64,000 nt of DNA from Streptomyces sp. WZ-12 (GTDB lineage: Bacteria > Actinomycetota > Actinomycetes > Streptomycetales > Streptomycetaceae). Of this stretch, positions 48,850-56,183 are shown piece after piece. The position numbers were made by a program, and so were the translations under genes. How positions within the stretch are numbered: position 1 is the first letter of the stretch; every line of letters begins with the position of its first letter. The notes under the pieces are model-generated. The model worked only from the letters and a program-made list of their open reading frames with translations, ran no database searches and was not told the DNA's origin. Where the stretch lies: positions 5,615,001-5,679,000 of the forward strand of contig NZ_CP118574.1 in the NCBI RefSeq assembly GCF_028898845.1. Direction: 5' to 3'.

Positions 48850-50205
48850 GTGGTGGAGCGGATGGAACACACCCAGGCGGAGGCGGCGCGGACGGCGGAG
48901 CCGGTGCCCGCCGGCGGCGCCCCGGGCACCCGGACGGTGTCCGGCGGCCTCGGCGGGAGCGCCGCCGACGCGGAGAAGCGGCGCGGCGTCCGCCGGATGA
49001 AGGCCCTGGCGACCGGGCTGCTGCTGGCCGTCGCCCTGGTGTACGCGCTGGCCAAGTGGGCCGGCGCGGCCGGCGCGGGCGGCTGGACCGGCTATGTCGC
49101 GGCGGCCGCCGAGGCCGGCATGGTCGGTGCGCTGGCCGACTGGTTCGCGGTCACCGCCCTGTTCAAGCGGCCCCTGGGCCTGCCCATCCCGCACACCGCG
49201 ATCATCCCGAACAAGAAGGACCAACTCGGCCAGAGCCTCGGTGACTTCGTCGGGGAGAACTTCCTCTCCGGCGAGGTCGTCCGCCGCCGGCTGCGCTCGG
49301 TCGGCGTCGGCGCCCGCCTCGGCCGCTGGCTCGCCGAACCCGGCAACGCCGACCGGGTCACCGCCGAACTGTCCACCGCGCTGCGCGGCGCGCTGACCGT
49401 GCTGCGCGACTCCGACGTCCAGGCGGTCGTCGGCGAGGCCATCACCCGCCGCGCCGACGCCGCCGAGATCGCGCCCGGCATCGGCGCCCTGCTGGAGAAG
49501 GTCGTCGACGAGGGCGGCCACTCCCGGGTCGTGGACCTGGTCTGCACCCGCGCCCACGACTGGCTGGTCGACCACGCCGACTCCGTCCTCGCCGCGGTCT
49601 CCGGCGGCGCCCCCGGATGGACCCCCCGGTTCGTCGACCGCAAGGTCGGCGACCGCGTCTACAAGGAACTGCTCCGCTTCGTCGCCGAGATGCGGGACAT
49701 GCCCGACCACCCGGCGCGCGGCGCGGTGGACCGCTTCCTGACCGACTTCGCCGCCGACCTGCGGTCCGACCCGGCCACCCGCGAGAAGGTCGAACGCCTC
49801 AAGTCCGAGGTGCTGGGCCGCGGCGAGGTGCAGGACCTGATCGCCTCCGCGTGGGGCGCGGTCCGCGCGATGATCGTGGCCGCCGCCGAGGACGAGCGCA
49901 GCGAACTGCGGCTGCGGGTCCGCTCGGCACTGCTCTCCCTCGGCGGCCGCCTGGCCGCCGACGAGCGGATGCGCGACAAGGTCGACGGCTGGCTGGAGGG
50001 TGCCGCGGTCTACGTCGTCACTACCTACCAGAGCGAGATCACCGCCCTGATCACCGACACCGTCGCCGGTTGGGACGCCACCCACACCTCCCGCAAGATC
50101 GAGGCCCACATCGGCCGCGACCTCCAATTCATCCGCATCAACGGCACGGTGGTGGGGGCGTTGGCGGGCCTGTGCATCTACGCCATCTCCAACGTGTTCG
50201 GCTGA
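48850..50205 (+). CDS. DUF445 family membrane protein
   Basis: A 451-residue protein. DUF445 begins with two N-terminal hydrophobic segments (about residues 50-95, LLLAVALVYALAKWAG and AAEAGMVGALADWFAVTALF), then long amphipathic helices containing PHTAIIPNKKDQLGQSLGDFV, and a final membrane helix at the C-terminus. It resembles YheB/YjiN proteins of unknown function. Starts GTG 48844, GTG 48850 and ATG 48862 are all possible; GTG 48850 has the best spacing from GGGGGAG. Confidence 0.85.
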   Translation: MVERMEHTQAEAARTAEPVPAGGAPGTRTVSGGLGGSAADAEKRRGVRRMKALATGLLLAVALVYALAKWAGAAGAGGWTGYVAAAAEAGMVGALADWFAVTALFKRPLGLPIPHTAIIPNKKDQLGQSLGDFVGENFLSGEVVRRRLRSVGVGARLGRWLAEPGNADRVTAELSTALRGALTVLRDSDVQAVVGEAITRRADAAEIAPGIGALLEKVVDEGGHSRVVDLVCTRAHDWLVDHADSVLAAVSGGAPGWTPRFVDRKVGDRVYKELLRFVAEMRDMPDHPARGAVDRFLTDFAADLRSDPATREKVERLKSEVLGRGEVQDLIASAWGAVRAMIVAAAEDERSELRLRVRSALLSLGGRLAADERMRDKVDGWLEGAAVYVVTTYQSEITALITDTVAGWDATHTSRKIEAHIGRDLQFIRINGTVVGALAGLCIYAISNVFG

Positions 50206-50383
50206 CGTCGGGCTTTTTCCCCACGTTGGTGGCTGTCCCGCCGCGCGGGTTGCTGTGTTTTGCGCCTTGCGGCGCGGGCCGGTCCGCTGCCGGTCCGCTG
50301 CGCGGGGCGGGTCGAGTTGTCTGGTCCGCTTGCGCGGGGCGGGTGGGGTTGTGGTCCGCTGCGCGGGGCTTTTGGGGTGCGGT

Positions 50384-50454
50384 GACGGGCCTGCGGGGTG
50401 GGTGTGCAGGACTGCTTCGCTTTACGTCCTGCACACCCACCCCTCCGGCCCGTC
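50384..50454 (+). repeat. 71-nt hairpin unit, A1
   Basis: GACGGGCC/GGCCCGTC outer arms, a 3-nt internal loop, an 18-bp inner stem and a 13-nt loop TGCTTCGCTTTAC. Confidence 0.85.
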
Positions 50455-50530
50455 CCCTCCCGTTGGGGGTGGGGAAAAACGGTGGGTGCCACGTCCTCTC
50501 GGTGGGTCAACTCGGGCCGCTGGGTTGAGT

Positions 50531-50645
50531 GGTGACCGTCAGAGGATGTGTGAGCGTGAGCGGTGACCGTCAGAGGGCGCGTGAGCGTGAGCGGTGACCG
50601 TAAGAGGACGAGTACGCGTGAGCGCGCGTGGTGACCGTCAGAGGA
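50531..50645 (+). repeat. four spaced copies of GGTGACCGTCAGAGG
   Basis: Units begin near 50531, 50562, 50593 and 50630 (the third with one change), with linkers rich in GAGCGTGAGC. Copy B of the element holds only two such units. Confidence 0.8.
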
Positions 50646-50695
50646 CCACTCAGGACCAGCCCCATCCCAGAGAAATCCACCCCTCAACGGGAGGA

Positions 50696-50766
50696 GACGG
50701 GCCGGAGGGGGTGGTGTGCCAGACGTAAAGCGAAGCAGTCTGGCACACCACCCCCGGAGGCCCGTC
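50696..50766 (-). repeat. 71-nt hairpin unit, A2 (inverted)
   Basis: Same architecture as A1 with the loop in reverse complement (GTAAAGCGAAGCA); inner stem GGGGGTGGTGTGCCAGAC and its complement. Confidence 0.85.
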
Positions 50767-51039
50767 ACCGCACCCAACAGCCCCGCGCAGCGGACAACTC
50801 AACCCGCCCCGCGCAGCGGACAACAACTCCATCCGCCCATCGCAGCGGCACCGCGCAGCGGACATGTCGGCCCGTCACCGCAACCCAACAGCCCCGCGCA
50901 GCGGACAACTCAACCCGCCTCGCCCCGCGCAGCGGACCGGCATCGCCCGCGCCGCAAGGCGCACAGAGCAGCACCCCGCGCGGCGGGATAGCCAACAACG
51001 TGGGAAGCAGCCCAAGCGCAGCGACTAGGCTCGGCCGAC

Positions 51040-51324
51040 GTGCGAATTCCGACCCACGGCGGGAAAGCCGAAAACGTGGGGCGCAGGCCGAGCGCGACGA
51101 GACGGCGTCCTGCGCTGCTCTGGCTGCTGCTGCCCTATGTGCTGTTCCTGGTGGTGCTGCCGCTCGTCAACCGGGTCACCCCGACCGTCCTCGGCCTGCC
51201 GTTCCTGTTCTTCTGGATGCTGCTCGCCACCCTGCTGACCCCGCTGGCGGTCTGGCTGGCGCGCCGCGGTGACCTGCGGCGCGGCCACGGCCGGGGCGAG
51301 GCGCCGACCGGGGGTCGCGCGTGA
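51040..51324 (+). CDS. DUF3311 small membrane protein
   Basis: A protein of up to 94 residues with two membrane helices (LLWLLLPYVLFLVVLPLVN and LPFLFFWMLLATLLTPLAVW). DUF3311 proteins are typically encoded just before an SSS-family symporter and are thought to be small partner subunits. The next gene overlaps by 4 nt (GTGA). The start is uncertain: GTG 51040 lacks a Shine-Dalgarno, while GTG 51076 follows GGGAAAG but lies in a leftover of the repeat element end. Confidence 0.82.
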   Translation: MRIPTHGGKAENVGRRPSATRRRPALLWLLLPYVLFLVVLPLVNRVTPTVLGLPFLFFWMLLATLLTPLAVWLARRGDLRRGHGRGEAPTGGRA

Positions 51325-55572: not shown

Positions 55573-55697
55573 GCATCCCACGTTGTTGGCTCTCCCGCCG
55601 CGCGGGTTGCTGTTCTTTGCGCCTTGCGGCGCGGGCCGGTCCGCTGCGCGGGGCGGGTGGGGTTGTTGTCCGCTGCGCGGGGCTGTCGGGGTGCGGT

Positions 55698-55768
55698 GAC
55701 GGGCCTCCGGGGTGGGGGTGCCAGACTGCTTCGCTTTACGTCTGGCACCCCCACCCCTCCGGCCCGTC
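55698..55768 (+). repeat. 71-nt hairpin unit, B1
   Basis: The same design as A1: outer GACGGGCC/GGCCCGTC, an inner stem ending TGCCAGAC/GTCTGGCA, loop TGCTTCGCTTTAC. Confidence 0.85.
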
Positions 55769-55949
55769 CCCTCCCGTTGGGGGTGGGGAAAAACGGTGGG
55801 TGCCACGTCCTGCCGGTGGGTCAACTCGGGCTGCTGGGTTGAGTGGTGACCGTCAGGGGGCGGGTGGCCCAAGCGATCCGGGCGGTGACCGTCAGGGGAC
55901 CACAGTGGCCAGCCCCATCCCAGAGAAATCCACCCACTCAACGGGAGGG

Positions 55950-56020
55950 GACGGGTCGGAGGGGGCGGTGTGCCAGACGTAAAGCGAAGCAGTCTGGCAT
56001 GCCGCCCCCGGAGGCCCGTC
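55950..56020 (-). repeat. 71-nt hairpin unit, B2 (inverted)
   Basis: The loop is GTAAAGCGAAGCA. The outer left arm has one change (GACGGGTC), and one inner pair differs from A2 (GGTGTGCC against GGCATGCC), yet pairing is largely kept. Confidence 0.85.
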
Positions 56021-56183
56021 ACCGCAGCCAACAGCCCCGCGCAGCGGATCGGCCCGCCGCAGGCGGCACGGCGGGAAAGCCGACAACGTGGGCGAGGCCC
56101 CGCGCAGCGGATCGGCCCCGCCCGCGCCGCAAGGCGCAAAACAGCAACCCCCGTGACGGGAAAGCCAACAACGTGCGGCACCT

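Follow-up and report, generated by a model that had tools for sequence, protein, structure and literature searches.

A dispersed, modular family of extragenic palindromic repeats in Streptomyces, located mostly behind genes and probably tied to transcription ends

The window analyzed here, 64,000 nucleotides of the Streptomyces sp. WZ-12 chromosome (NZ_CP118574.1, positions 5,615,001 to 5,679,000), holds at 50222-51002 a long non-coding stretch, here called element A, which raises the question of what kind of element it is and what maintains it. Inspection of the sequence and a repeat search identified it as a foldable, non-coding copy of a repeat, lying between a gene that ends at 50205 and the next, which starts at 51139. 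Our own GC-frame gene caller found no gene inside it, in agreement with the original prediction of non-coding DNA without a transposase gene. Its plan is modular: END repeats, GTCCGCTGCGCGGGGC units, a long hairpin and an asymmetric centre are followed by the same modules inverted. In window coordinates its features, and a second copy, are the following.

50222..50243, + strand: left END repeat, CACGTTGGTGGCTGTCCCGCCG, complementary to 50981-51002
50293..50369, + strand: left GTCCGCTGCGCGGGGC units, at 50293-50308 and 50354-50369, with an imperfect third in between
50381..50457, + strand: left long hairpin, with the 19-nt tip GACTGCTTCGCTTTACGTC at 50410-50428 (repeat search, family comparison)
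50458..50530, + strand: M side of the centre, GGGGGTGGGGAAAAACGGTGGGTGCC..., resembling copies in the WZ-12 genome
50531..50644, + strand: four U units, GGTGACCGTCAGAGG, starting at 50531, 50562, 50593 (1 mismatch) and 50630
50656..50682, + strand: L side of the centre, CCAGCCCCATCCCAGAGAAATCCACCC (sequence, motif map)
50693..50769, - strand: right long hairpin, an inverted copy, with the tip reading GACGTAAAGCGAAGCAGTC on the + strand at 50722-50740
50780..50937, - strand: right GCCCCGCGCAGCGGAC-type units, at 50780, 50806, 50848, 50891 and 50922
50981..51002, - strand: right END repeat (sequence, motif map)
51057..51081, - strand: second right END repeat, beyond the right limit first proposed (repeat search, motif map)
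55579..56175, no strand assigned: second full copy inside the window (genome match and motif map, L045 8580-9176)

The near-complementarity predicted for the two ends was confirmed by the repeat search over 60 nt at 88% (50220-50279 against 50945-51004), as were the two oppositely oriented hairpins, with arms at 50381-50412/50426-50457 and 50693-50724/50738-50769; these sit within longer inverted arms of 104 nt at 86% (50366-50469/50681-50784). All four predicted U units are present, the one at 50593 imperfect, and their number differs between copies in the genome. The heptamer GCGCAGC occurs at 50297 and 50358, on the opposite (outward) strand of the left units, and at 50785, 50811, 50853, 50896 and 50927 in the right ones. 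The right boundary originally drawn falls short of the outer inverted END, and by eye more inverted repeats continue beyond the ENDs. That the stretch could fold back on itself is upheld by the predicted RNA fold of the whole element, at -601 kcal/mol, whereas 20 dinucleotide shuffles averaged -392 (sd 4.4; z -48); the stretch around the right hairpin (50681-50800) gave a z of -7.6. An Rfam search of 50000-51200 yielded nothing above the gathering score, in line with the earlier failure to match the element to a described family. The 24 matches up to E 1 were all to miRNA models, scored below their gathering thresholds and were discounted as noise arising from the long hairpins.

A search of the genome showed that element A is not a single-copy sequence, with members of the family in at least 41 places of the WZ-12 genome (matches merged within the extracted stretches). 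The 19-nt tip, allowing up to one mismatch, occurred 70 times (36 forward and 34 reverse), compared to 0 for the reversed control; 67 of these tips lay inside the merged places and one further in L152. A motif map of the WZ-12 copies gave the order END, CG units, hairpin and centre, followed by hairpin, CG units and END in inverted form; a side has up to four ENDs, U units number 0-5, and the centre is oriented either way. Hairpin pairs numbered 29, the remaining loci consisting of single hairpins or fragments.

Beyond WZ-12 the family is confined to a small part of the genus sample. The tip was present in 15 of 392 sampled Streptomyces genomes, WZ-12 included, with 50 tips in G064, 49 in G335 and 29 in G199, and only one or two in each of five carriers (G060, G086, G161, G218 and G327). 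A class-wide sample of 394 genomes contained it in 3, namely WZ-12 and two with single matches. The carrier set includes S. lydicus, S. albospinus, S. kronopolitis, S. sioyaensis and S. albireticuli, which have at least one exact tip among the matches listed, together with S. niger, S. nigrescens, S. eurocidicus, S. celluloflavus, S. rhizoryzae, S. inhibens, S. olivoreticuli, S. klenkii, S. endophytica and one MAG. About a dozen of the matches listed, in S. sioyaensis, S. kronopolitis, S. inhibens and S. rhizoryzae, fall no more than about 70 bases from the end of a draft contig; assemblies thus seem to break at the elements. Variant forms were also seen. One locus (L301, G318:C1:1283050-1283500) is a single-hairpin form whose one tip is flanked by ENDs on both sides, and it looks as though recombination between the two inverted hairpins had removed the centre. 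In strains CT34 and MspMP-M5 (L178, L176 and L254) some hairpins carry, by eye, an extra hairpin-like insert at the tip.

To place the copies relative to genes, we used the calls of our GC-frame script throughout. The 41 places in WZ-12 comprised 19 between convergent genes, 15 between tandem and 6 between divergent genes, with 1 unassigned. Over all species, 134 elements (one element of G318, L094 and L107, being counted twice) divided into 71 convergent, 56 tandem and 7 divergent positions, compared to 105, 509 and 172 among 786 background neighbour pairs from the same loci. A gene 3' end is thus adjacent in the convergent or tandem arrangement for 127 of 134 elements, compared to 614 of 786 background pairs. 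By these calls the elements are mostly located behind genes, and they are probably tied to transcription ends. In the tandem-gene loci of WZ-12, the M side of the centre faced the end of the upstream gene in 8 of 10 cases (orientations entered by hand).

Comparison of flanks revealed that element places are shared between species. The 26 orthologous element pairs, which stem from 10 sites and hence are non-independent, had both flanks 82-94% identical. Their centres, on the other hand, averaged 0.62 in identity, little above the 0.59 of 2446 further pairs drawn from different species; most of the best paralogs had identities of 0.8-0.99. Consistently, the nearest neighbour of a hairpin pair belonged to the same genome in 64 of 78 cases, or in 64 of the 72 able to have such a neighbour, six pairs being alone under their genome label; these 78 were drawn from 84 pairs after dropping N-containing ones, the duplicate L107, and L098 with its inserted DNA. 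A between-label identity of 1.0 arises because G327 and S. eurocidicus, both retained as labels here and in the count of mismatches described below, are identical DNA. There were two exceptions to this pattern: L180 and L253 (0.83) resemble each other more than either resembles its best paralog, and the pair of L060 3529 and L261 (0.705) exceeds the best paralog when seen from the L261 side only. Orthologous centres about as unlike as unrelated ones, together with paralogs that are usually closer, argue for concerted evolution, and repeated insertion at preferred sites would produce an ortholog pattern no different from that of gene conversion. In the dropped locus of G064 (L098 790-1519), two hairpins stand 730 nt apart with an apparent small gene between them; the orthologous place, L060 site 2 in WZ-12, has an ordinary centre in other species.

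Empty sites in relatives, the comparison proposed with the original prediction, were found as orthologous sites without the element. Of 100 other genomes searched for element A's own site, 8 were read. In two (G035 and G018) the intergenic DNA is short and plain, with best perfect hairpins of 8 bp and 6 bp, respectively, the 8-bp one lying within the gene in our reading. Four (G064, G036, G048 and G058) carry another gene, which by eye resembles a class E sortase (L155-L158). In G060 (L159) other repeats were seen by eye, a tandem GGTCAAGGGCCGCCCAGGCCCTTGAA... filling the intergenic space. In G090 the site is occupied by a sister element that shares the ENDs and hairpin feet and has the short tip GGAC-TCC-GTCC. 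Exact matches to the hairpin-foot pattern with other tips occurred in 1 of 295 genomes, again G090, at 7 places.

For the sites in L060 and L048, 11 stretches were read and the remaining genomes were used as coordinates only. Site 1 of L060 lies between convergent genes. Tip and END are lacking there from two carriers (G215 and G199) and from G090, which have plain perfect hairpins of 18, 18 and 13 bp, respectively; G289 has a gene instead, with a best perfect hairpin of 8 bp, and in G335 the copy has lost its left tip. At the L048 3162 site, between tandem genes, tip and END are lacking from G215, G199 and G335, where the best perfect hairpins were 10, 8 and 6 bp. Beside this site, these three genomes have in common a conserved stretch, GGGTGCCCCGGCACAGGGGAGCGGGGCAACC... 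(L296-L298), whose end adjoins the WZ-12 element and which looks like a structured leader RNA. At L060 site 2 either matches run into the element or a tip is present in G335, G199, G215, G372, G414, G064 and G318; G090 has the sister element there, and the contigs of G289 end at this point. In G064 (L066) a 16-bp stem followed by T6, on one strand, immediately precedes a half element. Replacement of a terminator by the element was rejected as a general rule, plain strong hairpins being present at one site and not at two others; the weak hairpins (6-10 bp) at L048 3162 and at element A's site leave that idea standing on one site.

The centres themselves gave a mixed picture. In element A the two sides of the centre pair poorly by eye, which counts against a terminator-like centre, and full centres from other species folded about like shuffles (z -0.7 for L062, +0.8 for L167 and 0.04 for L272). 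Half-element stretches gave z values of -1.3 (L065), -2.3 (L064) and -5.6 (L066). By eye, the centres of other species consist of inverted G/C-rich arms with T-rich edges.

With a little more confidence than doubt, we favor the reading of this family as a dispersed, modular extragenic palindromic repeat, of the REP/BIME kind but far larger, that would work at transcription ends and be homogenized by gene conversion. The comparisons of sequence show its many copies, modular plan, hairpins maintained by compensatory change, location at gene ends, shared sites, homogenization within genomes and element-free orthologous sites. Under this reading, the element would act where transcription ends, with a centre that may halt transcription arriving from either side, and at some sites it may stand where relatives have a plain terminator. 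A single cellular factor could recognize the flanking hairpins, with their near-constant tip, in single-stranded form, either RNA or DNA. Copies would be kept alike through gene conversion between dispersed copies and not by frequent transposition, and new sites would be seeded rarely, via recombination or by some enzyme. Gene conversion was reportedly raised for the evolution of REPs by Higgins in 1988.

The original prediction had pointed to a non-autonomous mobile element or a structured one. The family is indeed dispersed, structured and non-coding; active non-autonomous transposition, on the other hand, found no support. We regard it as rather unlikely that these are transposable elements of MITE or REPIN type, mobilized in trans by a transposase of the host that acts on the hairpins or ends and inserted repeatedly beside gene 3' ends. 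Inverted ends and many copies would suit such a process, as would carriers without the element at sites occupied elsewhere, such as G215 and G199 at L060 site 1, these two and G335 at L048 3162, and G064 at element A's site. REPINs consist of two inverted palindromes around a spacer, and singles also occur, which the paired inverted hairpins and single hairpins recall. However, the target duplications expected at the junctions are absent: 27 WZ-12 copies with END on both sides, whose ends are not sharp, showed no excess at 3-9 nt (five-mers 0 compared to 0.8 in shuffles, four-mers 4 compared to 3.1), and a looser set of 28 copies, some with imprecise ends, gave the same result. A search for the Y1 transposase family (Y1_Tnp) was negative in 14 of 15 carriers, with 0 of 5 genomes (three of them carriers: G000, G064 and G086) and 1 of 12 further carriers positive, and the RAYT hypothesis was rejected on these counts. 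The sole Y1 transposase among the carriers tested, G218:C11:20367-20726, belongs to a genome with two tip matches. Sites are shared between species, moreover, and the 41 placed WZ-12 copies span 1.26-7.40 Mb of the 9.17 Mb chromosome with none outside, a confinement that uniform scatter would produce with a probability of 7e-8. The lack of target duplications, the missing Y1 transposase in 14 of 15 carriers, the fading ends and the shared sites are better accommodated by a REP/BIME-like mosaic near gene 3' ends than by a MITE.

The hairpins bear on a second alternative. Across loci, 245 instances were collected, 117 of them distinct, with a nearly invariant 19-nt tip, although many loci were retrieved by exact match to the tip. 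The stem around the tip varies without losing complementarity, and its lower part usually contains a 3 x 3 mismatch of TCC against TCC. In an alignment of 65 of the 117 unique sequences, hand-picked for diversity and including a few truncated copies, 95.6% of cells were paired. Two-sided changes accounted for 275 cells, compared to 83.5 in shuffles, and were seen at 15 of 17 stem pairs; one-sided changes accounted for only 4. The hairpins are maintained through compensatory change. G-U pairs made up 6 of about 1056 paired cells, and such a scarcity of wobble intermediates suggests that the two arms may change jointly, through rewriting of the DNA. The A-C compared to G-T mismatch asymmetry (58 and 29 species-position events), considered as evidence for the folding strand, was set aside as a hint only, weakened by shared ancestry.

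Compensatory change around a constant tip and placement behind genes are what would be seen if the family were purely a structural RNA element, the tip hairpin serving as a protein-binding or RNA-protecting motif of 3' UTRs and the DNA repeats as mere carrier. We judge this unlikely: the near absence of G-U pairs would be unexpected for a helix under RNA selection alone, and the orientation of single hairpins relative to neighboring tandem genes is not fixed, with 15 and 15 of 30.

A third line of thought starts from the tip sequence. The oligonucleotide d(GCGNAGC) forms an unusually stable mini-hairpin, and the outward strand of tips and CG units reads GCGAAGC and GCGCAGC. On 58 arms from WZ-12, GCGNAGC was counted 206 times outward and 10 times inward, compared to a Markov expectation of 27.6 (maximum 40 in 100 runs); these counts are not independent because the units are homologous, and the motif is not rare in the window (123 over two strands). 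The commonest change of the tip, T8 to G, was found in 7 of 245 hairpins from loci mostly found by exact match, and reads GAA to GCA on the other strand. The contig ends of WZ-12, considered as telomeres for comparison, were by eye not telomeric. According to PMC4513846, sheared G:A pairs close the GCA loops of palindromes II and III in Streptomyces telomeres, and these loops are bound by Tap. An interior, telomere-like hairpin set is conceivable on this basis and in our view quite improbable: a constant GNA-triloop tip would be read at transcription ends by a dedicated factor (Tap-like, or of replication or termination), both arms would be rewritten by template switching or hairpin-directed conversion, and the set would be renewed in step in each genome. 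A telomere-like single-stranded DNA element proper, in which an outward row of GNA-triloop mini-hairpins would be bound by Tap or a replication or repair factor, is very improbable, for the outward bias, the Tap-bound GCA loops and the GAA to GCA change that speak for it are met by copies that lie in the interior and not at the termini, and by counts that are non-independent for a motif that is not rare in the window.

We recognized no published description of this element in the literature covered (mostly titles and the beginnings of abstracts, with subscription journals and preprints outside its scope), and four 14-15-mers of the element returned 0 papers. The closest relatives in kind are REPs, which PMC3733652 describes as extragenic, palindromic, multi-copy sequences that frequently form inverted pairs and lie for the most part near gene 3' ends, where the neighboring genes are convergent or unidirectional; they are best known from proteobacteria. 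The text of that paper has no match for Streptomyces or Actinobacteria. With the REP/BIME sequences of the GTAG and CGTC superfamilies, the family shares multiple copies, extragenic location, palindromes and a preference for gene 3' ends. It differs from them in size, the hairpin being about 77 nt and the element several hundred nt long, whereas a REP unit is given as about 14-40 nt in PMC12306157 and PMC3733652. Its hairpin, moreover, lacks GTAG, has CGTC only inside the paired lower stem and not as an unpaired end tag, and combines a constant tip on a variable stem with END, CG and centre modules. CGTC REPs, which according to PMC3733652 have no dedicated transposase, resemble it in location, pairing and that missing transposase, and differ from it in size, tags, modules and host group.

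The remaining systems each match in part. With REPINs mobilized by RAYT the family shares an inverted palindrome pair, a spacer and singles, whereas a Y1 transposase is present in only 1 of 15 carriers. MITEs are alike in their terminal inverted repeats (here 60 nt at 88%), lack of coding capacity and many copies, and unlike in that the present elements have neither target duplications nor sharp ends and occupy sites shared across species. Streptomyces telomere palindromes have GNA-triloop tips and rows of small palindromes in common with these elements, which are nevertheless interior (1.26-7.40 of 9.17 Mb), dispersed, near gene 3' ends and built on long imperfect stems. Bidirectional intrinsic terminators likewise lie between convergent genes, and the inverted G/C arms and T-rich edges of the centres seen by eye, as well as the plain hairpins of three element-free species at one site, are like them; unlike them, the element, whose terminator role is putative, has large repeat modules around its centre, and of the full centres tested most were no more stable than their shuffled versions. 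With its shared places, renewed sequence, constant tip and empty sites, the family opens the comparison of extragenic repeats in Streptomyces, and because it can be compared across species, it makes testable how intergenic repeats homogenize, whether they take over transcription ends, and what reads the tip.
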